From: Ramlibacter sp.
Lineage (GTDB): Bacteria; Pseudomonadota; Gammaproteobacteria; Burkholderiales; Burkholderiaceae_C
Direction of reading: 5' to 3'
DNA length: 44,955 nt
Assembly: GCF_029866045.1 (NCBI RefSeq)
Contig: NZ_JARXAB010000054.1
Coordinates: forward strand, 1 to 44,955
Shown: piece after piece, positions 5,955 to 25,503 of the stretch
How positions within the stretch are numbered: the first letter of the stretch is position 1
How the letters are laid out: every line of letters begins with the position of its first letter
Program-made: the position numbers and the translations under genes
The notes under the pieces: model-generated
Told to the model about the DNA's origin: nothing
Database searches by the model: none
What the model saw: the letters and a program-made list of their open reading frames with translations, nothing else

Positions 5955-6800
5955 TCAGGCCCGAAAAGCCACGACTTCCTGCCGCTGGGCGCCCAGGCCT
6001 TGGATTCCCAGGGTCATCACGTCGCCCTTCTTCAGGAAGCGGGGCGGCTTCATGCCCATGCCCACGCCGGGGGGCGTACCGGTGGTGATGACGTCCCCCG
6101 GGTACAGAGTCATGAATTTGCTCACGTAGCTCACCAGCTCGGCGGCGCCAAAGACCATCGTTCGGCTGTTGCCGGTCTGCATCCGCTGGCCGTTTAATTC
6201 GAGCCACATGTCCAAACGCTGCGGGTTGGGCACTTCGTCCGTCGTGACCAGCCAAGGTCCGATGGGCCCGAAGGTGTCGCAGCTCTTGCCCTTGTCCCAT
6301 TGCGGGCCGCGTTCGAGCTGATACTCCCGCTCGCTCACATCGTTGACGACGCAGTAGCCGGCCACATACGAGAGGGCGTCCTTGCGCGTCACATAGCGCG
6401 CAGTGCTGCCGATCACGATGCCCAGCTCCACCTCCCAGTCGCTCTTGACCGAGCCCTTGGGCAGCATCACCGCATCGTCGGGGCCTTGGATGCAGCTGCT
6501 GGCCTTCATGAAGATGATGGGCTCTTTGGGAATCGGCATGCCGGCCTCGGCCGCGTGGTCGGAGTAGTTGAGGCCAATGGCCACAAACTTGCCGATTCCG
6601 GTGAGGGGGCATCCCATGCGCGGCTTGCCACGGACGGCCGGGGCCTTGCGCGCCGCGCGCCGAATCTTTTCCAGCGCGGTCGGCGAGAGTTGGGCCGGAC
6701 CGATGTCCGCCACGACAGCGCTCAGGTCGCGCAGCACACCCGCTTCATCAATCAGGCCGGGCTTTTCTTTGCCTGGGCGTCCGTAGCGAACCAGCTTCAT
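5955..6800 (-). CDS. Fumarylacetoacetate hydrolase (FAH) family protein
   Basis: A 281-residue FAH-fold enzyme. The family contains acylpyruvate hydrolases, 2-oxo-acid hydratases and decarboxylases, ureidoglycolate lyase-type proteins and oxaloacetate tautomerases, so the reaction cannot be fixed from sequence. The core is clear: GKFVAIGLNYSDHAAE, then DWEVELGIVIG with the metal-binding glutamates, VVNDVSERE, and the C-terminal PGDVITTGTPPGVGMG. I start at 6800, where MKLVRYG begins with AGGAAG upstream, rather than at the longer frame. It is the last gene of the minus-strand catabolic set, 58 nt after the MDR gene. In this pathway a 2-oxoacid tautomerase or hydrolase role would fit, but that is inference. 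Confidence 0.9.
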   Translation of the reverse strand: MKLVRYGRPGKEKPGLIDEAGVLRDLSAVVADIGPAQLSPTALEKIRRAARKAPAVRGKPRMGCPLTGIGKFVAIGLNYSDHAAEAGMPIPKEPIIFMKASSCIQGPDDAVMLPKGSVKSDWEVELGIVIGSTARYVTRKDALSYVAGYCVVNDVSEREYQLERGPQWDKGKSCDTFGPIGPWLVTTDEVPNPQRLDMWLELNGQRMQTGNSRTMVFGAAELVSYVSKFMTLYPGDVITTGTPPGVGMGMKPPRFLKKGDVMTLGIQGLGAQRQEVVAFRA

Positions 6801-6858
6801 GTTTGTCTTCCTTGTTTTGTTTTGTTTTGAATGAATGGAGAGCCGTCTGCCCCGCCGG

Positions 6859-7848
6859 TCAGGCCGCGACCTGCAGGACGACATTCCCGATGACCTGACC
6901 GCTTTCGATGGCTTCATGCGCGCTCACGATATCTTTCAGAGAAAACCGGGCCGCGATGTTGTGCTGCAAGACACCGCGCTCCAGCATCCGCGTCAGCGTG
7001 GCGACCGCGCGGGCGCGGTCGCTGGGGGACAGGTGGTACACGATGAAAAACTTCAGCTGGATGTTGCTGTGAAGCAGGCGAGAGAAGGGCAACTCGAGTT
7101 TGTCCATCCCGTTGCCGTAGATGACGCACTCACCGCCCGTCTTGAGCATGTCGAGATTAGCCCCCACGTTCGCGCCGATATCGACCTCAATCACCCGGTC
7201 GACTCCCTCGCCCTGCGTGATGTCGAGCACCCGCTTCGCGAGCGGCTCCGATTTGTAGAGAACTACCTCGTCCGCCCCAGCCTGGCGGGCAAGTTCGGCC
7301 TTCGCAGGGCTGCTGACGCTGGCGATCACCCGCGCCGCGCCGAGCAGGCTGGCAAACTGCACGGCGTAGTGCCCGACCGCCCCGGCGCCACCGGCCACTA
7401 CCACCGTCTTTCCAGCCACACCCCCGTCCATCAGAACCGCATGCAAGGCGGTGAGGGCCGGAATGCCCATGCAGGCGCCAGCCTCGAAGCTGGTCTGCTC
7501 GGGGAGGGCCACGGCCTGCTCAGAGGGCAGACACAGGAACTCGCAGGCGGTGCCGTGTGGACGCCCCCGGGCGGCATTCCACACCCATACCCGCTGGCCC
7601 AAGCGATGCGTTGAAACGCCCGCGCCCACAGCATCGATCACGCCCGCGCCGTCGCTGTGGGGAATCACCCGCGGAAAGGGCATCTCCGTGACCCGCCGTC
7701 CCATACGGGTTTTCACGTCGGAGGGGTTGATCCCGGAACTCTCGACGCGCACACGCACCTCGCCGGGAGCAGGTTCGGGCAGGGGCAGATCCTCTAACCG
7801 TAGGACGTCTCTCGCGGGTCCCAAGCGTTCGTAGAAGGCGGCTCTCAT
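6859..7848 (-). CDS. Zinc-independent medium-chain dehydrogenase/reductase (quinone oxidoreductase-like)
   Basis: A 329-residue MDR-superfamily NADPH-dependent oxidoreductase of the quinone reductase type. The GroES-like N-terminal part (PAPGEVRVRVESSGINPSDVK) is followed by a Rossmann domain with VVVAGGAGAVGHYAVQFA near residue 145. No catalytic or structural zinc cysteines are visible, so a classical alcohol dehydrogenase is unlikely. The start MRAAFYERLGPA at 7848 is the normal N-terminus of the family; the open frame continues upstream without homology-like sequence. It lies between the Bug protein gene (52-nt gap) and the FAH gene, so it probably reduces an enone or aldehyde intermediate, or has a side role. 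The substrate is unknown. Confidence 0.9.
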   Translation of the reverse strand: MRAAFYERLGPARDVLRLEDLPLPEPAPGEVRVRVESSGINPSDVKTRMGRRVTEMPFPRVIPHSDGAGVIDAVGAGVSTHRLGQRVWVWNAARGRPHGTACEFLCLPSEQAVALPEQTSFEAGACMGIPALTALHAVLMDGGVAGKTVVVAGGAGAVGHYAVQFASLLGAARVIASVSSPAKAELARQAGADEVVLYKSEPLAKRVLDITQGEGVDRVIEVDIGANVGANLDMLKTGGECVIYGNGMDKLELPFSRLLHSNIQLKFFIVYHLSPSDRARAVATLTRMLERGVLQHNIAARFSLKDIVSAHEAIESGQVIGNVVLQVAA

Positions 7849-7900
7849 GTCTTTGGGTTGTTTGGAGTCGTAGCGGCAGGCCGCAGCCGCCGCCACAGCC

Positions 7901-8875
7901 TCACTGAACCTTGATGTTGCCCGTCTCCACCACCCGCTTCCAGCGGACGATGTCGTCGCGCACGATCTGCAGCATTTGCTCGGGGGTGCCGCCAACGGGC
8001 GTTGTACCCTCAGTCGAGAACTTTTCCTGCACGCCCCGATGCGCCAGCACCGCATTGAGCTCGGTGTTCAGGTAGGCAACGATTTCCGGCGGGATGCCGC
8101 GCGGGCCGGCAATCGCCTTCCAGTCCACCACGTTGTAGCCGGGGGTTCCCTGCTCTTCGAAGGTAGGCACATCCGGCATGGCAGGCGAGCGTTGCGCGCC
8201 GGCAATGCCCAGCGCGCGCACACGCCCCGAGCGGATAAAGGGCGCGGCGTAGGTGGCGCTTGTGAGCATCATGTCCAGGCTGCCCCCCATCAGGTCGCTC
8301 ATGGCTTGCGAGGAGCCCTTGTACGGAATGTGAACGAGCTTCAGGCCCATGAGAAAGGCCAGTTCTTCCATGCCCAGGTGCGCGATCGAGCCGACGCCCG
8401 CAGACCCGTGCGTGAGCTTGTCGGGCGTGCGCTTGGCCTCCGCGATCAGGTCGCGGGCATTGCGAAGCTTGGAGTTCGTGTTGACGATCAGCACGACGGG
8501 GTCGCGCGAGACCATCATGATCGGCTGCATGTCGCGGATCGGGTCGAAGGGCAGGGGCCCCACGGCGGCCTGGATCGGGTAGGTGCTGGACATGTTCAGC
8601 AGGGTGTAGCCGTCCGGGGCGGACTTCATGACGAAGTCTGCGCCGATATTGCCCCCTGCGCCGACCCTGTTCTCAACCACCACCTGGATATTCGAGCGCT
8701 CAGTCATTCGCTGGGCCAGCATCCGCGCCACGGTGTCGCCACCGCCGCCCGCAGCGAAGGGGACGACGAACCTGATGGGTTTAGCCGGGTACTTAGCCGG
8801 TTGTGCGCCAGCCTGCATGGCCCAAGGCGTGAGCGCAGTGGCAAGCGTGAATTGACCAAATGTGCGTCTTTTCAT
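7901..8875 (-). CDS. Bug/TctC-family tripartite tricarboxylate transporter substrate-binding protein
   Basis: A periplasmic solute-binding protein of 324 residues, of the class greatly expanded in Burkholderiales. The N-terminus MKRRTFGQF followed by a hydrophobic stretch and AGAQ is an export signal; the KRR could suit Tat export. The mature protein begins PAKYPAKPIRFVVPFAAGGGGDTVAR, the usual Bug opening, and has ENRVGAGGNIGADFV and PDGYTLLN. CGGAG precedes the chosen ATG at 8875. No TctA or TctB membrane genes are in the window, which is common for orphan Bug proteins. Family ligands are mostly carboxylates, consistent with the neighbouring carboxylate enzymes. Confidence 0.93.
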   Translation of the reverse strand: MKRRTFGQFTLATALTPWAMQAGAQPAKYPAKPIRFVVPFAAGGGGDTVARMLAQRMTERSNIQVVVENRVGAGGNIGADFVMKSAPDGYTLLNMSSTYPIQAAVGPLPFDPIRDMQPIMMVSRDPVVLIVNTNSKLRNARDLIAEAKRTPDKLTHGSAGVGSIAHLGMEELAFLMGLKLVHIPYKGSSQAMSDLMGGSLDMMLTSATYAAPFIRSGRVRALGIAGAQRSPAMPDVPTFEEQGTPGYNVVDWKAIAGPRGIPPEIVAYLNTELNAVLAHRGVQEKFSTEGTTPVGGTPEQMLQIVRDDIVRWKRVVETGNIKVQ

Positions 8876-8950
8876 GGTTTGTCTCCGTGGTTTTTCCCGA
8901 TGGTATGTGAGTCTCGGCGTCGGGCTCAGCGCGATATTAGCGCGCAATTT

Positions 8951-10114
8951 TCAGCGCGCGAGACTCGTTCGGTAGTACACCTCGCCCTTGAACAGCCTGC
9001 GGGCGGTTCGATAGGCCGACGCATGGCGGGCTTGGAGGGTCTCGCCCTGGCGCTCCACATGCGCCGCCACGACGATCACGCCTGAGGGGTGTCCGATGCG
9101 GATGTCTGGGTCTGCGCCGGTGGTGGCGACCACCTGCGCCGGCAGGCTGCCGGGAACGCGGCAGGCCACGGCCAGGCACAGCGCGCCGGTCAGGGGCACT
9201 GCGCGATGTGGCTGCCCTGTCGACATCATGCGCACCAGGATGTCGGTTTTTGCCGCGCTCTGGACAGCGCCCGACAACAGCGGAGCGTCGGCGGGTGATG
9301 CGACCAGCGCCACGAGTGGCAGCGACGCCTTCAGGCCCGCCGCTTCGGCGTCCGGCGCCAGTCCCATTGCGACCGATGCCGCACGCCGCACCGCCTCGAG
9401 CTTGCGCAGCAGCTCCGGGTTGCTCTCGATCTCCCCGGGCAGTTCGATGCCGGTGGCGCCCAAGGCCCGAGCCTCGACGAAGACGCAGGGGTTGGCCGCG
9501 TCGATCAGGCTGGCGTTGACCGGTCCGAGGCCGGGTACGTCAAGCGTGTCGCACGCATGGCCGGTAGGCAGCAGTCGGCCGGTGCTCGGCCCGCCAGGGT
9601 GGAGGAAGTCCAGCCGGATGGGGGAGCCGGTTCCAGCCACGCCGTCCAGGCTCATTTCGCCGTCGACCGCTGCAGCGCCACCCTGCACGTTGAATTGCGC
9701 GTGGATGATCTTGCGGGTGTTGGTGTTGTGGATCCGGACCGTGGTCGGGCCGTCTGGCGGGCAGGGCACCAGACCTTCGTCGATCGCGAACGGACCGATG
9801 GCGGAGGTCATGTTGCCGCAGATCGCCGAAAAGTCCACCCGGTCGTCCTTCACCGATACCTGCGCGAAGGTGTAGTCGACGTCCGCATCCGGGTGGGTGG
9901 AGGGGCCGACGATGCAGATCTTAGAGACCGAGGAGACACCGCCGCCCATCCCGTCAAGCTGGCGAGCGTAGGGGTCGGGCGAACCCATCACCGCGCGGAA
10001 GATCGGCGCCCAGCTTGCCTGGTCTGCCGGGAGGTCTTCACGATGGAACATCACGGCCTTGGAGGTGCCGCCTCGCATGAAGACGGCGCGAAGTCTGGAC
10101 TGCTGCACGTTCAC
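8951..10114 (-). CDS. PrpF-family aconitate/methylitaconate-type double-bond isomerase
   Basis: A 387-residue protein of the PrpF family, a diaminopimelate-epimerase-like fold. Known members shift C=C bonds in unsaturated polycarboxylates: PrpF on 2-methylaconitate, Mii on 3-methylitaconate, and the 4-oxalomesaconate tautomerases. The opening RAVFMRGGTSKAVMF is typical. The residues expected for acid/base chemistry are present as Lys65 in SSVSKICIVG and Cys99 in AICGNMTSAIG. It begins 6 nt after etfA, so it is part of the same transcript as the TcuA-like dehydrogenase, where an isomerase of the newly formed alkene makes sense. A short GCGCGC hairpin (8940-8959) overlaps the stop. The substrate is not determined. 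Confidence 0.92.
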   Translation of the reverse strand: MNVQQSRLRAVFMRGGTSKAVMFHREDLPADQASWAPIFRAVMGSPDPYARQLDGMGGGVSSVSKICIVGPSTHPDADVDYTFAQVSVKDDRVDFSAICGNMTSAIGPFAIDEGLVPCPPDGPTTVRIHNTNTRKIIHAQFNVQGGAAAVDGEMSLDGVAGTGSPIRLDFLHPGGPSTGRLLPTGHACDTLDVPGLGPVNASLIDAANPCVFVEARALGATGIELPGEIESNPELLRKLEAVRRAASVAMGLAPDAEAAGLKASLPLVALVASPADAPLLSGAVQSAAKTDILVRMMSTGQPHRAVPLTGALCLAVACRVPGSLPAQVVATTGADPDIRIGHPSGVIVVAAHVERQGETLQARHASAYRTARRLFKGEVYYRTSLAR

Positions 10115-10120
10115 CTCGAT

Positions 10121-11089
10121 TCAGCCGCGGAGTTGGGCCACGCGTTCGTTGAAACCTTTGAGAACTTGCTCGTAATCGTCTACCACGCCCCAGTTGGCGC
10201 GCTTGAAAATCTCAGCACCGGCTTCGGTGTTGATCGCCACCACCATCTTGGCGCCGGTGATGCCCGCCAGGTGCTGCGGCGCGCCGGAGATGCCTACCGC
10301 GATGTACAACTCAGGCGCCACCGTGGTTCCCGACAAGCCCACCTGATGCCGGGAGGGGACCCAGCCAGAGTCGGCCACCGGACGCGAGCAGGCCACCGAG
10401 GCGCCTAGGGCGGCAGCGGTCTCCTCGATGCGGTGCCAGTGCTGCGGGCCGCCCACGCCACGGCCGCCGGCCACGATCTTCTTGGCGTCCTTCAGACGGA
10501 CACCCTCGGCGCTTTGCACCTCTTCGCTGAGGACCTGCACCGGTGCATCAGGCAGCGCCGTCACTTCGAGGTGACTAGGCGTCACCGCCTGGCCCGTGGG
10601 CAGAGGTTCAAAGTCGCCCGCGCTCACAGTCACGATGCGCAAATCGCCAAGCACTTCAAATTGCGCAAGGACGCTGCCACCGTTGACCGGCTTGGTGGCC
10701 AGCAGCTGGCCGTCTTCCACCGAGACGGCGCAGCAGTTCATTACCAACGCCGCCTGCAGGCGAGCGGCCAGAATCGGCGCCCACTCGCGTGCCACACCGC
10801 CGTGGGGGATGACCACGGTGGAGGCACCGCTGGCTTCAATCGCCGCTTGGGCGGCCCGCACATAGGCGTCCGCTGTGTAGGGCGCGAACTGCGTGCCTTC
10901 GGCCAGATAGAGGGCCGACAGGCCGCATTGCATTGCCTCTGCGGCTGCGGACAGGCTCGGGCCGATCAGGGCGCCCATGAGGGGAGCGCCCATGGCATTC
11001 GCCAAAGGTGCGGCTGCACCTGCGGCTTGAAGCAGGGAGCGGTCAAACTCGCCTTCAGTGAGGCCGCCCAGTACGAGTACGCCAGCCAT
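10121..11089 (-). CDS. etfA: Electron transfer flavoprotein alpha subunit
   Basis: The FAD-binding subunit of ETF, which accepts electrons from flavoprotein dehydrogenases and passes them to ETF:quinone oxidoreductase. The protein has 322 residues. The C-terminal FAD domain is recognisable as [29 protein letters not shown] and [17 protein letters not shown], close to the family consensus. The usual segment before the C-terminus reads [19 protein letters not shown] where many family members have NxDxxAPIF, a divergent version. The start shares one base with the etfB stop. It lies between etfB and the prpF-like gene, 6 nt apart, so all are co-transcribed with the dehydrogenase. No acyl-CoA dehydrogenase gene is present nearby. 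Confidence 0.95.
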
Positions 11090-11877
11090 CAGAGTAACCC
11101 CGCTTCGTGCAAGCGATCGGCCAGCGCGGCGCCCTTGGCTGCCGCGGTGTCGCCCTCGATCAGGCGCGCCGAGGAGGTACGCAACTGGATGTCCTGCTTT
11201 CGCATTTTGAGTTTGGGCTGGACCGGCGGGAGGGCGAGGTCACTCGCCGTCCACGTGGGGGCCAAGGCCCTCGACGCGATCATCGTGCCCTTCATGGAAG
11301 GCGCGCGGGGGTCGTTCATCTCGCTGGATACGCCGAGCACCGCCGGCAGACGGACGCGGACCCGCTGGTAACCGTCGTCAAGCAGGCGATGCACCAGCAG
11401 CGCTTCTTCGCCGCTTTCTTCCACCCGAGCCACAGGGCAGACGGCAGGCATGCCCAGTTCCTGGGCGATCCAGAACAGAACCTGCCCGGCGTCGGTGTCG
11501 GATGCCTGGCGGCCGCACAGAACCAGGTTCACATCACCGATGCGGCGGATGGCGGCGGCCAGCACACGGCCTGTCCCCGCGCTGTCCAGATCGGCCCAGG
11601 CCGGGTCGGACAGCAGCACCACCGCGTCTGCGCCCATCGCATGGGCCCGCTTGAGTGTGTTGCGGCTGGCACCGTCACCCAGGCAGATGACGGTGACCTT
11701 GCCGCCATGGGCTTCGCGCAGCTTGAGCGCGGCCTCCAGTGCGTTCGCGTCGTAGCCATTCATCACCGGCGGCAGGCCATAGGTGGAGACGATGCGCTGG
11801 CTGGCCGGATCGACGCTGATGAAATCGGCCGGCAGGTTGGGGTCGACCACCTGCTTGACGGTCACGACGATGTTCAT
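11089..11877 (-). CDS. etfB: Electron transfer flavoprotein beta subunit
   Basis: The AMP-binding subunit of ETF, 262 residues. The N-terminus NIVVTVKQVVDPN and the downstream MNGYDANALEAALKLRE are typical, and the signature LVLCGRQASDTDAGQV near residue 120 is well preserved. The gene starts 7 nt after the stop of the TcuA-like dehydrogenase and its own stop overlaps etfA by one base. This tight packing suggests that the ETF serves the dehydrogenase, not general beta-oxidation. Housekeeping etfBA genes probably exist elsewhere in the genome, but that cannot be seen here. Confidence 0.95.
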   Translation of the reverse strand: MNIVVTVKQVVDPNLPADFISVDPASQRIVSTYGLPPVMNGYDANALEAALKLREAHGGKVTVICLGDGASRNTLKRAHAMGADAVVLLSDPAWADLDSAGTGRVLAAAIRRIGDVNLVLCGRQASDTDAGQVLFWIAQELGMPAVCPVARVEESGEEALLVHRLLDDGYQRVRVRLPAVLGVSSEMNDPRAPSMKGTMIASRALAPTWTASDLALPPVQPKLKMRKQDIQLRTSSARLIEGDTAAAKGAALADRLHEAGLL

Positions 11878-11884
11878 CGTGGAC

Positions 11885-13381
11885 TCAGGCTTTGTCTGCC
11901 AGTACCGCCAGGGCTGCGCTGCTGCCGGCCAGGCGGCCGAAGGTCGAGCCCGCCATCATTCCCGAGCCGGAGGCATAGTTGCCGACCCACAGGCCGCCCA
12001 CCATCTCGCCGGCGGTGTAGAGGCCCGGAATGCCCCAGCCCGCGTTGTGCTGCACCTGCGAAGTTTCCGGGTCGACCCGCAGGCCGCCGAAGGCGAAGGT
12101 CATGCCGCAGCGCACCGCCCAGCCCTCGAAGGGGCCCTCGGAGACCGACAGCGCGTAGTTGCTCTTGTTCACGCGCAATCCCTTCGTGCCTTTGCCGTCG
12201 ACCTTGTGCCGGTTCGGGTTGAAGTCGCCAGGTTGGATGGCGGAATTGAACTCGGACACGGTCCTCACGAAGTTGTCGGGCTGGATTCCCAGCTCCTGCG
12301 CCAGCCCTTCGAGGGTGTTCGATTTGGCACCCGTCGCCCCGGCGTAGTTGGTCGGGTAGAGATTCATCTTGCGCGCCTTCGCGTCCAGGATCTGGAACGC
12401 AATGCCGCCGGGCTGGGCGAGGATGGCCCGGCCCATCTTGGCGTAGGTGCGGCCGCGGGTGTCCTCACCCTCGTCGACAAAGCGCTCGCCGTTGGTGTTG
12501 ACCATGATCGAGTACGGATACACGTAGCGATCGGTGCTGTCGCCACCCGAGAGCGCGTGTTGCGAGGGCAGGGTGTGCTCGCTGATGTTGATGTCCTGCG
12601 GCGAGGCGTGGCAGGTGGTCCAGCTGCCATGGGCCATGCCACCGATGTCCATGGCCATTTGCAGACCCTCGCCCGTGTTGTAAGGCACGCCGCGGATGCG
12701 GACCGTGTCCCACCCGGAGCCCAGGTAGCGCGCGCGCATCTCTGGGTTGGCCTCGAAGCTGCCGCAAGCCAGGATCACGGCGCTGGCGGTGAACTTCACC
12801 ATCCCGGTCGGGGTGCGGGCCCAGACCCCGCAGACCTTGCCGCCTTCCAAAATGAGTTCTGCCGCGGCATGCTGGTAGTGGATGGGGACACCCGCCTTGT
12901 CGAGCGCCGCGTAATAGCGCTGCTGCATGCCGTAGCCGCCGCCGTTCATGATCAGGATGTTGTCGCCCAGGGCTTGCATGCCCGTGGCGGGGACCCAGTC
13001 CTGCCCCTTGGATGCCAGCCACTGCATGGTGTTGCGCGACTGGGTGACATGCACGCGCAGCAGCTCAGGGTCGCACTGCCCCGAGGTGACACGCATCACC
13101 TCGTCCCACGAATCGTCCTCGGTCCGCCGCGGGAGGCGGTCGATCAGGCCCTGCAGCTCTTCTTCGTTGGTGTTTTTCACTAGGGGGCGCAGATCGTCGA
13201 TGCCCTGAAACACAAAGCGCATGTGCCCGGTGAGTGCGCTGTTGCCCCCCCGATCCTGCTTAGGCGCCTTTTCCAGCATGCCCACGCGCACATTCTTCTC
13301 GAGCGCTGAGAGGGCGGCGCAGCAGGCCGCGTTTCCGGTACCGACGATCAGTACATCGTAGTGAATGGAGTTGTTCGACAT
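11885..13381 (-). CDS. FAD-dependent fumarate reductase/TcuA-like dehydrogenase
   Basis: A 498-residue flavoprotein of the FAD-binding fumarate reductase/succinate dehydrogenase superfamily, most like tricarballylate dehydrogenase TcuA, which oxidises tricarballylate to cis-aconitate. The dinucleotide-binding motif is VLIVGTGNAACCAALSALE (residues 10-28), followed by GGNSALTGHMRF. The C-terminal FAD contact region is GLYTAGEMVGGLWVGNYASGSG. There is no signal peptide or covalent-heme domain, so it should be cytoplasmic. TcuA normally hands electrons to TcuB, an Fe-S/heme membrane protein; no tcuB is present, but etfBA follow after 7 nt. No good Shine-Dalgarno precedes the ATG. A desaturase for a substituted succinate or tricarballylate is the best reading; a ketosteroid-type dehydrogenase is less likely. 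Confidence 0.88.
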   Translation of the reverse strand: MSNNSIHYDVLIVGTGNAACCAALSALEKNVRVGMLEKAPKQDRGGNSALTGHMRFVFQGIDDLRPLVKNTNEEELQGLIDRLPRRTEDDSWDEVMRVTSGQCDPELLRVHVTQSRNTMQWLASKGQDWVPATGMQALGDNILIMNGGGYGMQQRYYAALDKAGVPIHYQHAAAELILEGGKVCGVWARTPTGMVKFTASAVILACGSFEANPEMRARYLGSGWDTVRIRGVPYNTGEGLQMAMDIGGMAHGSWTTCHASPQDINISEHTLPSQHALSGGDSTDRYVYPYSIMVNTNGERFVDEGEDTRGRTYAKMGRAILAQPGGIAFQILDAKARKMNLYPTNYAGATGAKSNTLEGLAQELGIQPDNFVRTVSEFNSAIQPGDFNPNRHKVDGKGTKGLRVNKSNYALSVSEGPFEGWAVRCGMTFAFGGLRVDPETSQVQHNAGWGIPGLYTAGEMVGGLWVGNYASGSGMMAGSTFGRLAGSSAALAVLADKA

Positions 13382-13433
13382 CGTGGAAAAGGTGAGTGGT
13401 CTAAGGGTGAACCCGCGGTTCGCGTTTCGTGGT

Positions 13434-13462
13434 TTGACAGGGGCGAGGCATTGCCCTAAATT
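13434..13462 (+). promoter_or_regulatory. Sigma-70-like promoter of the plus-strand catabolic operon
   Basis: A perfect -35 box TTGACA (13434-13439), a 17-nt spacer and TAAATT (13457-13462, four of six matches) lie 48 nt before the lyase ATG at 13510. This is the best promoter match I see in the window. It predicts a transcript start near 13469. The minus-strand operon begins on the other side of the same 128-nt gap; I see no equally good promoter for it. Confidence 0.6.
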
Positions 13463-13477
13463 AATTCTGCATTAGTT

Positions 13478-13489
13478 TTTGCATGCAAA
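13478..13489. promoter_or_regulatory. Candidate operator palindrome in the divergent control region
   Basis: TTTGCATGCAAA is a perfect 12-bp palindrome about 10 nt downstream of the predicted transcript start, where a bound repressor would block transcription. The GntR/FCD gene at the end of the plus-strand set is the obvious candidate regulator. TGCAT also occurs 12 nt earlier, as a direct repeat (13468-13472). The assignment to GntR is inference. Confidence 0.4.
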
Positions 13490-13509
13490 CAAGAGAAAGA
13501 TTCCAAGCC

Positions 13510-14391
13510 ATGTCGCTTTCCCCCAGCAAGGAGCTGCGCCGTATCTTCGTCCCGGGCGCGGGTCTGGTGATGCCCGGTGCGGGCAATGCGTTGACGGCGC
13601 GCGTGATTGAAGCAACCGGTCACAAGGTCATGCTGGTGAGCGGGGCGGCGATCGCCAACAACTACCTGGGTCAGCCAGACATCGGACTGACCTCACTCAA
13701 TGAGCTGGTCAATCACGTGGCCAATATGCGCAACGTGGTCAACATTCCCCTGATCGTCGACTGTGACACCGGCTTTGGCAACGCGATCAGCGTCCGCCAG
13801 ACCGTGCGTGCCGTCGAGCGCGCAGGCGGTAATGCGGTGCTGATTGAAGACCAGAGTTTTCCCAAGCGCTGCGGCCACTTCAACAACCACGAGATCATCA
13901 GCAAGGATGAAATGGTGCAGAAGGTCAAGGCGGCTGTTGATGCGCGAATCGACGGTGACCTGATGATCGGCGCGCGCACCGATGCGCGCGGGATCGACGG
14001 TCTCGAAGCCGCATTCGATCGCGCATGTGCCTACAAGGAAGCCGGAGCAGACTTCCTCTTCATCGAGGCGCCGCAGTCGGCGGACGAGTTGGCTGCGATC
14101 ACGCGCGAGGTGCCCGGCCTGCATCTGTGCAATATGGTCATTGGTGGCAAAACCCCGCTGCTGCATCGCGACCAGCTCGGCGCCATGGGTTACGGCATCG
14201 TGGCCTATGCCAATGCAGCGCTCCAGGCCGCCTTGCTGGGGATGCAGTATGTGCTTCAGCACCTCAATGACAAAGGGTCGATTGAAGGCGCCGAAGAAAA
14301 GATCATGATGTTCAAGGAGCGTCAGGCGCTCTTGAACGGCGACTTCTATGCCGACCTGGCCACGCGCTACGGCGGGAGGCCCCAGCAATGA
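13510..14391 (+). CDS. PEP mutase/isocitrate lyase superfamily lyase (2,3-dimethylmalate lyase-like)
   Basis: A 293-residue TIM-barrel enzyme of the PEP mutase/isocitrate lyase superfamily. These enzymes cleave or form C-C or C-P bonds next to a 2-oxoacid enolate held by magnesium. Visible active-site residues are Asp84 and Asp86 in VDCDTGFG, Glu113 in IEDQ, the flexible-loop motif KRCGH with Cys121, ARTDA at 156-160 and Glu186 in FIEAP. The later segment CNMVIGGKTPLL resembles dimethylmalate lyase and oxaloacetate hydrolase more than methylisocitrate lyase PrpB. The ATG at 13510 has a purine-rich AGAGAAAGA upstream; the in-frame ATG at 13483 has none. The stop overlaps the next start by four bases. 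It would perform the final cleavage of the pathway. Confidence 0.88.
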   Translation: MSLSPSKELRRIFVPGAGLVMPGAGNALTARVIEATGHKVMLVSGAAIANNYLGQPDIGLTSLNELVNHVANMRNVVNIPLIVDCDTGFGNAISVRQTVRAVERAGGNAVLIEDQSFPKRCGHFNNHEIISKDEMVQKVKAAVDARIDGDLMIGARTDARGIDGLEAAFDRACAYKEAGADFLFIEAPQSADELAAITREVPGLHLCNMVIGGKTPLLHRDQLGAMGYGIVAYANAALQAALLGMQYVLQHLNDKGSIEGAEEKIMMFKERQALLNGDFYADLATRYGGRPQQ

Positions 14392-17686: not shown

Positions 17687-17742
17687 ACCTGTCCATGGAT
17701 CCGCCCCCGCCGCCGGGCCCAATGTAATTTTGAGGTGACGTT

Positions 17743-19509: not shown

Positions 19510-19544
19510 ACCCCCATCCCATTCCACCAATTACTGCGAGCATC

Positions 19545-20618
19545 ATGGGCATCCGCATATCCAATCTGGTCAAGATCTACGGGTCGACCCTCATCGTCGA
19601 TCAAATCTCGTTTGACGTCGCCGACGGTGAATTCGTGACGCTCCTGGGCCCCAGTGGCTGTGGCAAAACGACGACCCTGCGGTGCATCGCGGGGCTGGAG
19701 CGAGCCGATGGTGGCAGCATCGAGATCGACGGCACGGTGGTGTCGGACGGATCTCTTGGCATCCATGTGGGGACCCATGAGCGAAACCTGGGCATGGTGT
19801 TTCAGTCTTACGCCATCTGGCCGCATATGACGGTGGCGCGCAACGTCGCTTTCCCGCTTCAGGTGCGAGGAGCCACCCCCAGTGCTGCGATCGACGAGGC
19901 GGTGCGCTGGGCACTGGACGTCGTGGGCCTGGGCGCGCTGTCTCACCGGCATCCCTCCGAGCTCTCTGGCGGGCAGCAGCAGCGCGTGGCGCTGGCCCGT
20001 GCCATTGTGGGCAAGCCCAAGGTGCTGCTGTTCGACGAGCCCCTGTCCAACCTGGATGCGCGGCTGCGTGACCGCACCCGTTCTGAAATCAGCCGTATTC
20101 AGAAGGAACTGGCCATTCCGGCGGTCTACGTGACCCACGACCAGGCCGAGGCCCTGTCCATGTCAGACCGGGTGATCGTGATGAATGGCGGTGTGACCGT
20201 CGAGGAGGGTGCGCCGCGCAACCTGTACCAGCGGCCACGCAAGCGCTTTACTGCCGAATTCATCGGCGCGGCTAACTTTATCGGCATGACCTGGGACGGC
20301 CAGTTGTGGAAGACCGCGGACGGCGCCTCTGTGGCGATCCCGGGGCATTCCGCGGCAGGAGCTGGCGATACGCGGCAGGCGGTCCTTCGCTCTGAAGTGC
20401 TGCATGTCGAGCCGGCCGACGCACCGCTTAGCGCGGGCTTCGCCGCCCTGCGGGGGACGGTGCTGGGCCACCAGTACATGGGTCCCTATACCGAGTATTC
20501 GATCGATGTCGCGGGCACCGCCATCATGGCCCACAGCGCTGCGGAGTTCCCGGTTGGCAGCCCTGTGCATGTCACCTTCCGGCCGCAGGACATTCACCTG
20601 CTGCCCCCGGATGCCTGA
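19545..20618 (+). CDS. ABC transporter ATP-binding protein (FbpC/PotA-like)
   Basis: A 357-residue ATPase subunit. It has Walker A GPSGCGKTTT, the Q-loop in VFQSYAIWPHMTV, the signature LSGGQQQRVALARA, Walker B VLLFDEPLSNLDA and the switch histidine in YVTHDQAEA. The C-terminal ~110 residues form a TOBE-like regulatory domain (RPQDIHLLPP near the end). It follows the fused permease by 35 nt and precedes the first MmgE/PrpD gene by 24 nt. It energises uptake of the pathway substrate; the ligand is not known. Confidence 0.94.
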   Translation: MGIRISNLVKIYGSTLIVDQISFDVADGEFVTLLGPSGCGKTTTLRCIAGLERADGGSIEIDGTVVSDGSLGIHVGTHERNLGMVFQSYAIWPHMTVARNVAFPLQVRGATPSAAIDEAVRWALDVVGLGALSHRHPSELSGGQQQRVALARAIVGKPKVLLFDEPLSNLDARLRDRTRSEISRIQKELAIPAVYVTHDQAEALSMSDRVIVMNGGVTVEEGAPRNLYQRPRKRFTAEFIGAANFIGMTWDGQLWKTADGASVAIPGHSAAGAGDTRQAVLRSEVLHVEPADAPLSAGFAALRGTVLGHQYMGPYTEYSIDVAGTAIMAHSAAEFPVGSPVHVTFRPQDIHLLPPDA

Positions 20619-20642
20619 CGACAAACATTGGCTCGGAGCACT

Positions 20643-22040
20643 ATGAACGACAACACCAAAGCGCACCTCCTGGAGCCGGCCATCGCGGCCCGGCTGGCCG
20701 ACAAGATTTGCAGCATCACCTCCGACCAGGTGAGCCCAGAGGCCCTGCAATGGGCGGTGATTGCCGTCGTGGACACCCTGGCGGTGACCTATCTCGGCGC
20801 GCCAGAGCCTTGCACCGCCTTGCTGCTGGACACTCCCGGCATCGGTGATGCGCCTGGGCCTGCACTTTTCTTCGGGACTTCCAGGCGGGGGAGCATGCTG
20901 GACGCTGCGCTGGTGAATGGCACCGCCGCCCACGCCCTGGATTACGACGATGTCAGTGGGACGGTCGGCGGGCACCCGTCCGCGCCGATGGTTGCGCCCC
21001 TTTTCGCCATCGCAGAAGCCGAGCACCGTTCAGGGCGGGACCTGCTGGTGGCCTTCATGGTCGGCGTGGAGGTGCAGCACCGCATTGGGCGAGGCGTTAA
21101 CTTTCATCACTACACCAAGGGCTGGCACCCGACGGCGACCTTGGGCATTTTTGGTACCACTGCGGCTGCCGCTCACCTGCTGCGTCTCGACCGCCAGCAG
21201 GTCGCGGTGGCGCTTGCTATTGCGGCCTCTTTCGCGGCCGGCATCAAGGCCAACTTCGGGACCATGACCAAGCCTCTGCATGTGGGGCACACCGCCCGCA
21301 GCGGTCTGCTCGCGGCCCTGCTCGCCCAGCGCGGTTACACGGCCAACCCCGCCGCCATCGAGCACAAGCAAGGCTTTCTCGAGGTGTTCAACGGGCAGGG
21401 CACCTATGACATCGACAAGATGTTCACCGACATCGACGCGCCGATCGGGCTGGACCCCTCACTGGGTCTCAAGCAGTTCCCCTGCTGCGGAAGCACACAC
21501 CCGGCCATCACCATGATGCTGCGTCTGGTGAAGGAGGAGGGGATTACCGCCGCAGATACAGCCAGGATTGAGATCTTGGCCCAACGCAACCGACTGCCGC
21601 ATACCAATAACCCTGATCCGCGCAGCGGGCTCGAGGCGAAGTTCAGCATTCAGTACACCACGGCCCGTGCGCTGGCTGATGGTGCAGTGCGTCTGGAGCA
21701 TTTTGAGGTCGAGGCGCATCTGGACCCGCACGTGCGGGCACTGATGGCGATTACCGACACGCGCGAGCACCCGGACATGCCGGCCGACGGCCCCAACCAG
21801 TTTGGCTCGGAAGTGATCGTCACCACGCGGGACGGAAGGCGGCTCGCGCGGCGCATCGACCATCTGGTCGGGCGGGGACCGGACAACCCCATGTCCCGCG
21901 AAGAGCTCCGCGAGAAATTCACCGATTGCGCCAAGCGGGTGCTAGCGCCCAGCCAGTGTGGTGCGCTGTTTGAGGCGCTCATGGATCTGGACGCCGTCGA
22001 CGACATCGCCACTTTGTCACGCGCCTTGGAAGTGCACTGA
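20643..22040 (+). CDS. MmgE/PrpD family protein 1
   Basis: A 465-residue member of the MmgE/PrpD family. Characterised relatives are 2-methylcitrate dehydratase PrpD, cis-aconitate decarboxylase and an iminodisuccinate epimerase, all acting on polycarboxylates without metal. The active-site segment ALDYDDVSGTVGGHPSA has DYDD at 100-103 and His111, and a conserved lysine appears as Lys210 in TMTKPLHVGH. CGGAG lies 4 nt before the ATG at 20643; the in-frame TTG at 20628 is rejected. It is encoded between the transporter ATPase and the second binding protein. It could epimerise, dehydrate or decarboxylate the imported acid; the sequence does not decide which. Confidence 0.9.
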   Translation: MNDNTKAHLLEPAIAARLADKICSITSDQVSPEALQWAVIAVVDTLAVTYLGAPEPCTALLLDTPGIGDAPGPALFFGTSRRGSMLDAALVNGTAAHALDYDDVSGTVGGHPSAPMVAPLFAIAEAEHRSGRDLLVAFMVGVEVQHRIGRGVNFHHYTKGWHPTATLGIFGTTAAAAHLLRLDRQQVAVALAIAASFAAGIKANFGTMTKPLHVGHTARSGLLAALLAQRGYTANPAAIEHKQGFLEVFNGQGTYDIDKMFTDIDAPIGLDPSLGLKQFPCCGSTHPAITMMLRLVKEEGITAADTARIEILAQRNRLPHTNNPDPRSGLEAKFSIQYTTARALADGAVRLEHFEVEAHLDPHVRALMAITDTREHPDMPADGPNQFGSEVIVTTRDGRRLARRIDHLVGRGPDNPMSREELREKFTDCAKRVLAPSQCGALFEALMDLDAVDDIATLSRALEVH

Positions 22041-22102
22041 CCGCGCAGGCGGACAGTTACCTCCCAGGCCACCTTTCACGAAAATCCAAAAGGAGATCCC
22101 TC

Positions 22103-23191
22103 ATGCAATGCAAACCCCGAGCACTTTCATCTGGGAAGGGACGGCGCGCCCTCCTGTCAGCGTCGATCGCCCTGGCGGCTGGATTCGGCGCTCTCCTGCC
22201 AGCTGCGTCCTGGGCCCAGGGGGCAGCCCCCGCCTGGTCCACCGTGACCGCTGCTGCCGCCAAGGAAGGCAAGGTGGTCCTGTATCACAACCTCAGCCCC
22301 GACGGGATGGAGGTGCTGGCCCGGGAGTTCCGCAAGGATGTGCCCGGTGTCGAGGTAGAACTGGTTCGCCTTGGCAGCGCCGCCCTCTCGCAGCGCTTCT
22401 CGACGGAATACAGTGCGCAGCGTCACATCGCGGATGTGGTGGTGACCACGGTGGATCCGAGCATCTTTGCGGGCATCGCTGGTGGCTGGGCCGCGGCCTG
22501 GACGCCCCCCGAGCTTGCGGCCTATCCCAAAGAGGTCAACTACAAGGGTCAGAACATGCTTTTTCATGTTCTGACGGTGCGGGATGCCATCGTCTGGAAC
22601 AAGCAGCGTGTCCGTGAGGCTGATGCGCCCAAGGAATGGGCCGATCTGTTCGACCCGAAGTGGAAGGGCAAGGTGGGCATGAACCCCCCGTGGCGTTCGG
22701 TGACCCAACAGGCCATCATCGCCTACTGGGACAAGTTGGCGCTGGGTGATACCGCTGCGCGGATGAAGGCCAACGACGTCCGCTTTTTCGAGGGTTCCGG
22801 TGGCGTGCTGCAGGCCGTCATTCGAGGCGACGTGATGGTGGCCCAGATGCTCGACCTGCCACTGAATTCGGCCATCGCCGATGGCGCCCCGATCGGTTTT
22901 GCCTACCCGAAATCGGGGACGACCGTGTCGCAGGTCTCGACCTTCGTCTCGTCCAAGGCGCCGCGGCCAAACGCCGCACGGGTTCTGACCAATTGGCTGC
23001 TCTCGGTCAAGGGCCAGACCAACCTGCAAATTAACGGTGGCCTCGCGGGCACTCGCCCGGGCATCCCGCGCATGGCGCACCTGCCCCCGACCTCCACGCT
23101 CTCGAACGTGGTGGACAGCCTTGACCTCACGCCTCCTGCCAAGCAGAAGGAAATCGTGGAGCATTGGCGCAAAACTTTTGGCGTGCAGTAA
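22103..23191 (+). CDS. ABC transporter solute-binding protein 2 (paralogue of protein 1)
   Basis: A 362-residue periplasmic binding protein of the same type as the one at 16540. The signal region is GKGRRALLSASIALAAGF, with a likely cleavage site after SWAQ. Blocks shared with the first copy include FDPKWKGK/R, GMNPPWRSV, KANDVRFFEGSGG and the C-terminal PPAKQK; the ligand-contact half differs more. No adjacent tyrosine pair is present. A strong AAAAGGAG lies 6 nt before the ATG. It has no permease or ATPase of its own, so it presumably docks onto the one at 17743-20618. Two binding proteins could extend the substrate range or bind two stereoisomers. Confidence 0.91.
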   Translation: MQCKPRALSSGKGRRALLSASIALAAGFGALLPAASWAQGAAPAWSTVTAAAAKEGKVVLYHNLSPDGMEVLAREFRKDVPGVEVELVRLGSAALSQRFSTEYSAQRHIADVVVTTVDPSIFAGIAGGWAAAWTPPELAAYPKEVNYKGQNMLFHVLTVRDAIVWNKQRVREADAPKEWADLFDPKWKGKVGMNPPWRSVTQQAIIAYWDKLALGDTAARMKANDVRFFEGSGGVLQAVIRGDVMVAQMLDLPLNSAIADGAPIGFAYPKSGTTVSQVSTFVSSKAPRPNAARVLTNWLLSVKGQTNLQINGGLAGTRPGIPRMAHLPPTSTLSNVVDSLDLTPPAKQKEIVEHWRKTFGVQ

Positions 23192-23230
23192 GCCCGTTCC
23201 TTCTCCTATTTCCTCACTGAGGAAGCCACC

Positions 23231-24658
23231 ATGGCCTCACTGACGCTCGCACCCAACCCGACGCTTCCCGACCCCGCCGGGCCGACCATCGCCCAGCAGC
23301 TGTCGGCATTTGCCTGTGGCTTCAGCTACGAGGGCATCCCCGAGCGGGTGCGCGAATCGGCGAAGGACTTCATCCTCGACGCTGTGGGCTGCGCGCTCGC
23401 ATCGTCGGGGTACGACTTTTCCCACCGGATCCTGGCGGGTCTGCGCGGGATCGACGAAGCAGGTACCTGCACCGTCATCGGCTTTCCGGACAGGCTGCCC
23501 ATGCGCGACGCCGCGCTCATGAACGGCACCTTGATTCACGGCCTTGACTACGACGACTCTCACCTGGAGGCAGTGCTTCACCCGGGTGTGACCTCGCTGG
23601 CCTGTGCGCTGGCACTCGGTGAGAAAACTAACCGCAGCGGCCGTGACCTGCTGGCCGCCTATGTGCTCGGGGTGGAAAACGTCATTCGCATCTCCCGGGC
23701 CTCGCGCGGCGGCTTTCATCATTTTGGCTACCACCCGACGGGCCTGATCGCGCACTTTTCTTGCGCGATCGAGGCGGCCTGGATGCTCGGGCTGTCTGAG
23801 CGGCAGATGACCATGGCGCAGGGCTTGGCCGGTAGCACGGCCGCGGCCACCCAGGAGTTTCTGGCCGAAGGCGCATGGAACAAGCGGCTGCACCCGGGCT
23901 GGGCGGCAGCCGCCGGCATCACTGCGGCTTCACTGGCCCGTGGCGGCACGATCGGCCCCACCAAACCCTATGAGGGGAGGCTGGGCATCTACAACACCCA
24001 CCTGCACCATCTGGCAGAAAAGGTCGACTACAACCTCATCACCCGGGGCCTGGGCGTCGAGTGGGAACTGCTCGAGATTGCCGTCAAGCCCTTCCCGGTC
24101 TGCCACTTCGTTCATGCCTGCGGTGACGCGGCCTTGACCCTGCGCGAGAAGCATCACATCGACCCCGATCAGATCGAGCGGATCACCGCCTACCTGGCCG
24201 AGCCGACGATGCACATCGTCGCGGAGCCCGTCGGGATCAAGCGCCGTCCGGCCAATGACTATGATGCGAAGTTCAGCGTTCACTATTTTGTGGCGGCCTG
24301 CTTGGTGCGGGGGGAGTTCGGGCTTGCGGAGCTCAAGGATGACTCCCTGCGAGACCCCAAGATCCTGGCGCTTGCCGAACGCGTGGACGCAGTTGTCGAT
24401 CCAAAAACGCTTTATCCCAAGTACATTTCCGGCGGTGTCACCATCCACATGAAAGACGGAACGCAGCATGTTCACTACGACGCCGTCAACCGCGGCGCAG
24501 GCGACCGGGCTTTGACCCGGGCCGAGGTCGAGGCGAAGTTTTTCGCCAACGCCAAGCTGGCGGTGACGCCTGTGCGTGCGCGTGAAATCCGTGATGCGGT
24601 GTATGGACTCGAGGACCTGAACGCGCGTGAATTCGGCGCGGTATTGGCAGGCCGATAG
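23231..24658 (+). CDS. MmgE/PrpD family protein 2
   Basis: A 475-residue MmgE/PrpD-family enzyme. It has IHGLDYDDSHLEAVLHPGV (DYDD at 106-109, His117), YHPTGLIAHF near residue 170 and a lysine at 218 in WNKRLHPGW. It is clearly diverged from the copy at 20643: the lysine region is quite different, and the C-terminal domain reads NDYDAKFSVHYFVAACLV instead of EAKFSIQYTTARAL. The two probably catalyse different steps or act on different isomers. GAGGAAG precedes the ATG. It follows binding protein 2 by 39 nt, making the second binding-protein/MmgE pair of the operon. Confidence 0.9.
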   Translation: MASLTLAPNPTLPDPAGPTIAQQLSAFACGFSYEGIPERVRESAKDFILDAVGCALASSGYDFSHRILAGLRGIDEAGTCTVIGFPDRLPMRDAALMNGTLIHGLDYDDSHLEAVLHPGVTSLACALALGEKTNRSGRDLLAAYVLGVENVIRISRASRGGFHHFGYHPTGLIAHFSCAIEAAWMLGLSERQMTMAQGLAGSTAAATQEFLAEGAWNKRLHPGWAAAAGITAASLARGGTIGPTKPYEGRLGIYNTHLHHLAEKVDYNLITRGLGVEWELLEIAVKPFPVCHFVHACGDAALTLREKHHIDPDQIERITAYLAEPTMHIVAEPVGIKRRPANDYDAKFSVHYFVAACLVRGEFGLAELKDDSLRDPKILALAERVDAVVDPKTLYPKYISGGVTIHMKDGTQHVHYDAVNRGAGDRALTRAEVEAKFFANAKLAVTPVRAREIRDAVYGLEDLNAREFGAVLAGR

Positions 24659-24662
24659 CCTT

Positions 24663-24720
24663 GAGATGGCCCTTGAAATAGCCCTTGATATAGCCCTTGA
24701 GATAGCCCTTGAGATAGCCC
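24663..24720. repeat. 12-bp tandem repeat, about five units
   Basis: Units of GAGATAGCCCTT run head to tail: 24663-24674 (GAGATGGCCCTT), 24675-24686, 24687-24698, 24699-24710 and a partial copy from 24711. Single-base differences separate the copies. The array fills the 113-nt gap between the second MmgE/PrpD gene and the GntR gene. It is too short and lacks spacers, so it is not CRISPR. It may be a slippage tract or a repeated protein-binding site. Confidence 0.85.
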
Positions 24721-24771
24721 CGATATCCCTCTGAGTCAAACCCTTCGCTCCATCGCCCCGATGCCCTTGCT

Positions 24772-25503
24772 GTGACCCCCCGAAAGCCAATCAATTCACT
24801 GGCGGGCGACGAACTGGACGTCTTGGTGCAGTCGGCTTATCAGCAGATCAAGGACGCGATCCTCGACAACCGGCTGCGCCCCGGCACCAAGCTGACCCAC
24901 CAGGCGCTGGCCGAGATGCTGGGTGTTTCGCGCACGCCGGTGCGGGAATCGCTGGAGCGCCTGTACCAGGAAGGCTACGTCAGCCGGATCGCCAACCGCG
25001 GGCATTACGTGGCAGAGATCAACTCGGCCGACGTCCGCGACCTTTACGAGACCCGCGAGGCGCTCGAGACCTTTGCGGTGCAGCTCTTGTTTGTCAAGGG
25101 CAAGGTAGAGGCCGCCGCCAAGCGCTTGGCCGCCATCAACAAGGAATACCGCAAGACCTGCGAGGCCAAGCTCACCCGGGAGCGGCTGCAGTTGGACCGC
25201 GAGTTTCACCTCACGCTGGCCGGGGAAACCGGCAATGACTACCTGGTCAAGATGCTCGCTGGCGTGTTCGACCGCCTGATTCTCAAGCGCAGGATCGAGG
25301 GCTTCCAGGACCTGCGCGGCATGGACCCCTACGACGAGCATGTCCGATTGGTATCGGCCCTTGGCAAGAAGGACGAGGCCGCCGCGCGGGCGGTGCTCAA
25401 TAGCCATATCGGCAGCTCATGCGAGCGCTTTGCGAACTATCTCGAGGTCGAGCGGGGGGCGAACCCGGGTCTTTCCGGCCTGGTGGTCAAGCGCCTCGCC
25501 TGA
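24772..25503 (+). CDS. GntR-family transcriptional regulator, FadR/FCD subfamily
   Basis: A 243-residue regulator. The N-terminal winged helix-turn-helix is the textbook GntR sequence: QIKDAILDNRLRPGTKLTHQALAEMLGVSRTPVRESLERLYQEGYV. The C-terminal FCD ligand-sensing domain has DLYETREALE and three histidines expected to bind a metal: REFHLTL, YDEHVRLV and LNSHIGS. FCD regulators usually respond to small carboxylic acids. The frame has no early ATG; the GTG at 24772 is the first plausible start, and a TTG at 24823 is an alternative. It ends the plus-strand set, so it is the likely local controller, possibly acting at the palindrome at 13478-13489. Confidence 0.93.
   Translation: MTPRKPINSLAGDELDVLVQSAYQQIKDAILDNRLRPGTKLTHQALAEMLGVSRTPVRESLERLYQEGYVSRIANRGHYVAEINSADVRDLYETREALETFAVQLLFVKGKVEAAAKRLAAINKEYRKTCEAKLTRERLQLDREFHLTLAGETGNDYLVKMLAGVFDRLILKRRIEGFQDLRGMDPYDEHVRLVSALGKKDEAAARAVLNSHIGSSCERFANYLEVERGANPGLSGLVVKRLA

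Follow-up and report, generated by a model that had tools for sequence, protein, structure and literature searches.

A divergent Ramlibacter gene cluster that may break down substituted succinates without coenzyme A

What would a bacterium degrade with a gene set whose members carry the family names of methylcitrate-cycle, leucine and tricarballylate enzymes? The question is raised by a cluster of 17 genes in the window, a stretch of 44,955 nucleotides (nt) on contig C160 of a Ramlibacter metagenome-assembled genome (3.85 Mb in 182 contigs, 93% complete, 5.1% contaminated; hereafter the host; genomes, contigs and loci are numbered with G, C and L). Open reading frame (ORF) calling and Pfam/NCBIfam profile matches locate every gene that a sequence-only reading had listed, among them a TcuA-like dehydrogenase with its own electron transfer flavoprotein (ETF), a PrpF-family isomerase, a LeuCD-like hydratase, a C-C lyase of the PEPM/ICL superfamily and two MmgE/PrpD proteins (Table 1). 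They also bear out the divergence of two operons, 5955-13381 on the minus strand and 13483-25503 on the plus strand, across 101 bp (13382-13482). We tentatively propose that the cluster serves the uptake and the coenzyme A (CoA)-independent breakdown of a C2/C3-substituted succinate as free acid, because its gene content, the residues of a probable epimerase, the dedicated ETF and the recurrence of similar function sets in other genomes point this way.

The arrangement is more than chance, since a locus of a second genome of the genus (L290, G686) is collinear with 4549-14800 at 87.6% nucleotide identity and the ratio of nonsynonymous to synonymous substitution (dN/dS) between the two is 0.013-0.10 for eight genes, which shows selection on the genes measured (Nei-Gojobori script; LeuC over its initial 411 bp, PrpF excluded because of gaps). 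L290 carries FAH-MDR-Bug-PrpF-EtfA-EtfB-TcuA as well as lyase-LeuC, and its contig ends inside LeuC. The closest named contig in a contig scan, from Ramlibacter sp. SFB_Fresh_Co_96 (L152; L289 of G684, alike in length and gene layout, counts here as the same contig), encodes a lyase 98% identical and shares the flanks of the cluster, without 4681-5951, 9128-13325, 16440-24741 and 28695-31367 (the last outside the cluster) and with two short gaps around the FCD gene. It retains lyase and LeuC (dN/dS 0.037 and 0.053) together with about 177 bp from the 3' end of PrpF and some 56 bases from the start of TcuA, remnants that make a deletion in L152 the best reading of what is missing between them; given the many gaps in one metagenome contig, it may also be a misassembly. 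Among 60 genomes of the genus, five have the lyase at E<=1e-95, four of them at 61% identity or more and the fifth at 50%.

A first pointer to the substrate comes from MmgE1. Its PDB matches are headed by IDS epimerase (261.6 bits), followed by Bacillus subtilis IRG1 (194.6) and cis-aconitate decarboxylase (CAD; 156.1), and PrpD is absent among those at E<=1e-5. MmgE1 is probably a free-acid succinate epimerase, because all seven catalytic residues of IDS epimerase are kept (H85, D88, H99, Y145, H150, K198 and K266, as named in PMC12290011 and mapped at a constant offset of 20). According to the accessible part of that paper, an MmgE/PrpD protein said to keep these residues is an (S)-(R)-methylsuccinate isomerase that acts on free acids, not CoA esters, its docking has Glu91 where the Asp would stand, and the substrates of characterised family members have in common a four-carbon 1,4-dicarboxylate with C2/C3 substituents. 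The substituted-succinate class proposed from the sequence fits this epimerase look. The seven residues recur in five of 14 aligned relatives (L264, L076, L266, L276 and L248), each adjoining TcuA-like genes, and the remaining nine differ at one or more of them; an MmgE/PrpD match lies within flanks of up to 1.5 kb of TcuA-like genes at 14 of 29 loci besides the cluster's own. MmgE2 keeps six of the seven (Tyr145 is His), which leaves it outside the type, and its PDB matches to IDS epimerase and CAD score 105.5 and 99.7 bits.

The desaturation would fall to the TcuA-like protein, which exceeds the cut-off of the TcuA model NF006130 (473 bits over 369) and stays below that of TIGR02485 (220.9 against 372.55). 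In a 42-row tree it groups only with three copies from one genome, G293 (61-67% identity, support 100/100), and one of these stands in a same-strand row TcuA-MmgE-Bug-EtfB-EtfA (L264; TcuA 61%, EtfB 58% and EtfA 46% identical to the cluster copies). An ETF-quinone oxidoreductase (ETF-QO) is present in the host genome, which at about 93% completeness shows no TcuB over the cut-off (sole match 37 bits, cut-off 246.6); the host's three other EtfB-like matches are partial and 30-31% identical to the cluster EtfB. An ETF-linked desaturase is the best inference from the adjacent EtfAB, the parallel in L264, the ETF-QO and the lack of TcuB over the cut-off. No paper joining tricarballylate dehydrogenase with electron transfer flavoprotein was found in the open-access literature, most subscription papers lying outside the search. 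With the TcuA-like query, G293 itself gave 92 first-look candidates, against 40 for the runner-up among the genomes listed.

For the steps after desaturation, trees set the isomerase, the hydratase and the lyase apart from their textbook namesakes, so that this check, named by the sequence-only reading, does not refute its idea. The isomerase belongs to a 27-row clade of an 80-row tree, separate from the 50-row clade with the solved Shewanella PrpF, and stays under the cut-off of the PrpF model TIGR02334 (318.1 bits against 440.55). The evidence on its proposed likeness to Mii is mixed: Mii is the top PDB match (3g7k, 302.7 bits vs 255.7 for PrpF) and shares the motif IHNTNT where PrpF has IWQANI, but Mii lies outside both clades, its branch being long and its amino-acid composition deviant, and the best NCBIfam match of the isomerase is the 4-oxalomesaconate tautomerase model NF033377, under its cut-off (321.3 against 440). 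An AcnA-like gene occurs within 8 kb of related PrpF genes at five of 26 loci (L064, L067, L068, L083 and L162). At the last of these, in Ancylobacter sp. Lp-2 (2097-10873), the AcnA-like gene, a PrpF 58% identical to the cluster copy, an FCD-type regulator, TctC/B/A-like genes (by eye) and a lyase stand in a row.

The large hydratase subunit falls into a 5-row clade (100/100) of a 17-row tree, with Escherichia coli LeuC and the host's own leuB-linked LeuC outside it; a threshold of 250 bits for entry into this tree excluded the archaeal-type subunits, among them those of L064 and L083. It exceeds the cut-off of NF009116 (637 bits) and misses that of the LeuC equivalog TIGR00170 (517.6 against 560.25). 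The small subunit does exceed the LeuD model TIGR00171 (198.9 over 116.25); its loop, however, reads LGGTD[AS]KGYG in all five clade rows, where the host's own and E. coli LeuD have L[KQ][KS][VI]..TGFG, and because of this loop the substrate should differ from isopropylmalate. The comparison with dimethylmaleate hydratase was not upheld: NF009116 places the enzyme in the bacterial LeuC subfamily, and it falls short of both the LeuD/DmdB-type model TIGR02087 (73.6 against 108.95) and the IPMI_arch-type TIGR02086 (266.4 against 410.15), to which we presume DmdA to belong, only TIGR02087 among the models mentioning DmdB in its name. The host carries a further lyase-LeuC-LeuD set on contig C104 (L074, 9264-12171), 33%, 48% and 36% identical to the cluster copies.

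The lyase forms a 10-row clade (100/100) in a tree of 105 rows (110 matches scoring 100 bits or more over 75% or more of the length, plus petal death protein, identical rows removed; L290, L291 and L293 are absent from all trees). E. coli PrpB and the host's own true PrpB (contig C172, 59% identical to E. coli PrpB) group elsewhere, and the cluster enzyme stays under the cut-off of the prpB equivalog TIGR02317 (259.8 against 354.4). All ten rows keep the catalytic residues C123, R158 and E188 (numbered as in E. coli PrpB). The dialkylmalate lyase petal death protein (1zlp) is the top sequence match, at 33% identity, and the top fold match of an AlphaFold2 model (mean predicted local distance difference test score 93.1; E 1.4e-29), with PrpB structures in a near tie at 3.3e-29. 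Pseudomonas aeruginosa PrpB binds pyruvate via Y45, S47, G48, G49 and R160 (PMC11982470, accessible part), Y45 being E. coli Y43 at a constant offset of 2. Position 43 holds L, I or M in every clade row as against Tyr in 90 of the 94 others, position 113 L or M as against Gln (88), His (3), Met (2) and Asn (1), and petal death protein has Phe at both. Because an aliphatic residue replaces the pyruvate-binding Tyr of PrpB, at a position where petal death protein has Phe, the pocket would be less polar and suit alkyl substituents, favouring alkyl-substituted malates over a tricarboxylate. Of the alkyl- or carboxymethyl-substituted succinate first proposed, the succinate fits MmgE1, and the pocket speaks against the carboxymethyl group. 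At position 236 the clade carries Ala, E. coli PrpB Pro and petal death protein Ser; Ala236 is also found in 86 of the 94 other rows and V212 and G214 in 89 each, so these three residues separate PrpB from the rest and not the clade from its neighbours. Which residues set selectivity in PrpB-type enzymes is an open question according to the accessible part of PMC11982470.

How could these enzymes work together? In the route whose order, reactions and alkyl substituents we infer, the acid would be imported by the ABC system and/or the Bug protein, epimerised by MmgE1 and desaturated by the TcuA-like flavoenzyme to a substituted maleate or fumarate, the electrons passing via the dedicated EtfAB to ETF-QO. 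The PrpF/Mii-like isomerase would move the double bond from the itaconate type to the maleate type, the LeuCD-like enzyme would add water to yield a substituted malate, and the lyase would cleave this by a retro-aldol reaction into a 2-oxo acid and a carboxylic acid; the FAH enzyme and the MDR reductase may process the oxo-acid product or a side substrate, and the FCD protein would act as regulator. In a Pfam scan none of the 17 genes matched a CoA-transferase, CoA-ligase or acyl-CoA dehydrogenase family, a CoA-free picture qualified by the MDR protein, whose sub-cut-off NCBIfam matches include CoA reductases. A more specific form, in which an aerobic CoA-free pathway for 2,3-dialkyl-succinates or -maleates relies on a fumarate-reductase-fold desaturase feeding its own ETF, we regard as unlikely in that detail. 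By analogy, and speculatively, ethylmethylmaleate-type acids from heme or chlorophyll breakdown would be one candidate substrate; petal death protein cleaves 2-ethyl-3-methylmalate. Amidase or amidohydrolase genes, whose products could open imides, lie close to some relatives of the lyase or isomerase; the window itself contains none. A link to imide degradation is suggestive and was not retained: amidases occur within 8 kb at two of the 26 PrpF-clade loci (from two of which the queries were taken) vs none of 45 control loci.

If the cluster encodes one route, its functions should travel together, and the result of that comparison is mixed: parts of the set recur, but the complete set was not found outside Ramlibacter. 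The joining of a desaturation step to isomerase, hydratase and lyase, which the sequence-only reading had put at the centre, is seen in three other genomes of the same order as TcuA-like and LeuCD genes together with lyase and isomerase (L064, TcuA-lyase-LeuC-LeuD-PrpF-TcuA), isomerase (L083, TcuA-LeuC-LeuD-PrpF) or lyase (L293, FCD-LeuC-LeuD-TcuA-lyase-amidohydrolase-Bug). In all three the similar functions come from other family members, with other hydratases; the large subunits of L064 and L083 match the IPMI_arch model and the small subunit of L083 the LeuD/DmdB model. A further set of this kind, L267, has TcuA-TcuA-LeuC-LeuD-MmgE, with a LeuC-type large subunit near true LeuC in the tree. 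Combinations of TcuA-like, lyase, MmgE and FCD genes without LeuCD occur on the host's own contig C176 (L076), in a Hyphomicrobiales metagenome-assembled genome (L179) and in Rubrobacter marinus (L216), and a comparable set built with a different FAD_binding_2 protein is found in an actinobacterium (L160), L163 being alike by eye. In L160 (Thermocrispum, 9866-12237) the ORFs of the lyase and of an amidohydrolase have one base in common, and FCD, FAD_binding_2 and two MmgE/PrpD genes are nearby. AtuA and DUF4387 genes were seen in L291 and dropped as a link: in loci from L046 on and the window, AtuA-like genes occur only in L060, L291 and at the edge of L211, DUF4387 only in L060 and L291.

Several observations weigh against a single dedicated route. 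The whole set was seen only in Ramlibacter, where besides the host only G686 shows the FAH-to-TcuA operon with the lyase, and L152 is without most of PrpF, EtfAB, TcuA and the ABC-MmgE block. This type of EtfB is rare, found at E<=1e-70 in one of 369 genomes of the class, the host itself; the other two TcuA relatives of G293 show no ETF in 14.6 kb and 3.8 kb of sequence, and the MmgE beside a G293 copy in L262 is without two of the seven epimerase residues. Within 8 kb of the 26 other PrpF-clade genes, some of whose neighbourhoods are cut by contig ends, MmgE occurs ten times, FAD_binding_2, lyase and LeuC three times each and ETF never. FAH, MDR and MmgE2, finally, have no firm step.

Alternatively, the cluster might be a composite island in which Bug-lyase-LeuCD with FAH-MDR, TcuA-EtfAB-PrpF and ABC-MmgE1-MmgE2 serve two or three related acids and not one route, an alternative that we take seriously while judging it rather unlikely. 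The first of these modules does stand alone: Bug-lyase-LeuC-LeuD is found in Xenophilus aerolatus E41, Pseudacidovorax RU35E, G250 and Ramlibacter G638, without TcuA, ETF or PrpF in the Xenophilus, Pseudacidovorax and G250 loci, and Bug relatives (54-65% identical) directly precede the lyase in L144, L157, L158, L159 and L291. No LeuC match lies near the lyase in five clade rows (L153-L157), four of which have contig ends close by. LeuC at E<=1e-145 occurs in 10 of 399 genomes of the order, besides the host only G250 near 70% identity, and the lyase at E<=1e-70 in 55 of 250 genomes of the family, besides the host one (G368) at 62%. The TcuA-MmgE-Bug-ETF row of G293 is likewise without a lyase within its 13-kb locus, and L152 keeps one module without the other two. 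L152, however, looks like loss, with the ends of PrpF and TcuA kept and the FCD gene gapped too; the desaturase is joined to hydratase and lyase or isomerase in other lineages (L064, L083 and L293), and both operons of the cluster share one divergent region.

Instead of an alkylated succinate, the substrate could be tricarballylate or an alkyl homologue, from which the TcuA-like enzyme would make an aconitate-type acid, PrpF correct its geometry, LeuCD form an isocitrate-type acid and the lyase release succinate and a 2-oxo acid. The NF006130 match speaks for such a route, as do the AcnA-like genes near related PrpF and upstream of Bug-lyase-LeuCD in Ramlibacter G638. We nevertheless think it unlikely to be the right one: the lyase has V212 and G214 where E. 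coli PrpB has T and F, besides its aliphatic residues at 43 and 113, no TcuB exceeds the cut-off in the genome, and plain aconitate would need no dedicated hydratase and lyase. Still more doubtful are the C5 acids 2-methylsuccinate, itaconate or citraconate, degraded as free acids in a route that would parallel the known itaconate/methylsuccinate cluster and dispense with CoA. In their favour, LeuCD enzymes act on citraconate, and the known cluster includes an MmgE/PrpD methylsuccinate isomerase (PMC12290011 and PMC9875883, accessible parts). Against them, a Mii/PrpF-type isomerase would not obviously be required for C5 acids, for which a CoA route, moreover, already exists. A variant methylcitrate cycle in which PrpB, PrpF and PrpD are present in redundant copies matches the family names and is hardly credible, because no citrate-synthase family is found among the 17 genes, the prpB and prpF models stay under their cut-offs with the lyase and PrpF trees apart, a separate true PrpB is present and E. 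coli PrpD differs from MmgE1 at H85, Y145 and H150; a plain methylcitrate cycle and plain leucine genes are rejected on the same models and trees and on the separate true PrpB and LeuC.

Table 1. Predicted features of the cluster, with their positions in the window
Feature	Coordinates	Strand	Basis
FAH-family hydrolase, 281 aa	5955-6800	-	PF01557
MDR reductase, PIG3/quinone-reductase-like, 329 aa	6859-7848	-	PF00107/PF08240
Bug/TctC periplasmic binding protein, 324 aa	7901-8875	-	PF03401
PrpF-family isomerase, 387 aa, Mii-like by top PDB match	8951-10114	-	PF04303
EtfA	10121-11089	-	PF00766, PF01012
EtfB	11089-11877	-	PF01012
TcuA-like FAD_binding_2 dehydrogenase, 498 aa	11885-13381	-	NF006130
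Sigma-70-like promoter of lyase operon (predicted)	13434-13462	+	TTGACA-17-TAAATT; shuffle mean 0.0
PEPM/ICL-superfamily C-C lyase, 302 aa	13483-14391	+	PF13714
LeuC-like hydratase large subunit, 472 aa	14388-15806	+	PF00330
LeuD-like hydratase small subunit, 213 aa	15809-16450	+	PF00694
ABC solute-binding protein 1	16540-17643	+	PF13416
Fused ABC permease	17743-19509	+	PF00528, two stretches
ABC ATPase with TOBE	19545-20618	+	PF00005, PF08402
MmgE1, MmgE/PrpD protein, probable free-acid succinate epimerase	20628-22040	+	
ABC solute-binding protein 2	22103-23191	+	PF13343
MmgE2, second MmgE/PrpD protein	23231-24658	+	
FCD/GntR regulator	24772-25503	+	PF07729, PF00392

The promoter in Table 1 is the single sigma-70-like site inside the divergent region, and its hexamers are also visible in L152 and L290; a search of this region for an FCD operator returned as sole exact inverted repeat (arms of at least 6, gap below 8) a 6-bp one at the lyase start. 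The FAH protein has L-2,4-diketo-3-deoxyrhamnonate hydrolase as its top PDB match (350.8 bits) and scores 458.5 bits against NF053535, under the cut-off of 500, and the MDR reductase is under the cut-off of TIGR02824 (140.9 bits). At 24654-24720 a 12-bp unit, GATAGCCCTTGA, is repeated in tandem (5.7 copies) across the MmgE2 end and the intergenic stretch that precedes the FCD gene. A DUF1016/YhcG PDDEXK nuclease gene (4767-5945) adjoins the cluster, in a stretch missing from L152 and collinear in L290. Further off (35222-40409), ferritin-family genes (35222-35698, minus; 39933-40409, plus) flank an AhpC-type peroxiredoxin gene.

Should the proposed breakdown of substituted succinates be right, bacteria would have a free-acid parallel to the itaconate/methylsuccinate route that depends on CoA, and its TcuA-type desaturase would rely on ETF where TcuABC has TcuB. 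Families that now bear only the names of methylcitrate-cycle, leucine or tricarballylate enzymes would gain testable functions, with a warning that such names can mislead in Burkholderiales, and a pathway for 2,3-dialkyl-succinates or -maleates would open an unrecognised carbon source. The open-access literature yielded no paper naming any two of dimethylmaleate hydratase, methylitaconate isomerase and nicotinate and no title on a dimethylmaleate, dimethylmalate, methylitaconate or dimethylsuccinate pathway, which is no proof of absence, as most subscription papers lay outside the search.

Several known systems resemble the cluster in part. Petal death protein/2,3-dimethylmalate lyase (1zlp, 3fa3) gives, with 1zlp, the top fold and sequence match of the lyase, and 1zlp has hydrophobic residues at 43 and 113 like the lyase clade, but the low identity and the near tie with PrpB structures set the two apart, and 3fa3 ranks lower. 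TcuABC, the system of tricarballylate utilisation, has the same type of dehydrogenase by NF006130 though not by TIGR02485; in the cluster ETF replaces TcuB, and isomerase, hydratase and lyase follow downstream. The end-module of nicotinate fermentation in Eubacterium barkeri (Mii, DmdAB and Dml) has the same isomerase-hydratase-lyase order and folds, with Mii as the top PDB match of the isomerase; by the profile models it differs in its hydratase subfamily, and the cluster adds a desaturase, an ETF and an epimerase. The itaconate/methylsuccinate cluster of Cupriavidus and Pseudomonas (Ict, Ich, Ccl, methylsuccinyl-CoA dehydrogenase and an MmgE/PrpD methylsuccinate isomerase) combines, as proposed here, free-acid MmgE/PrpD epimerisation with flavin desaturation, hydration and C-C cleavage, and the electrons from its desaturation are assumed by the authors to pass via ETF (PMC12290011, accessible part). 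That route, however, proceeds by CoA esters, an acyl-CoA dehydrogenase and a citramalyl-CoA lyase, none of which the Ramlibacter cluster has, its own counterparts being an FAD_binding_2 dehydrogenase and an ICL-superfamily lyase.

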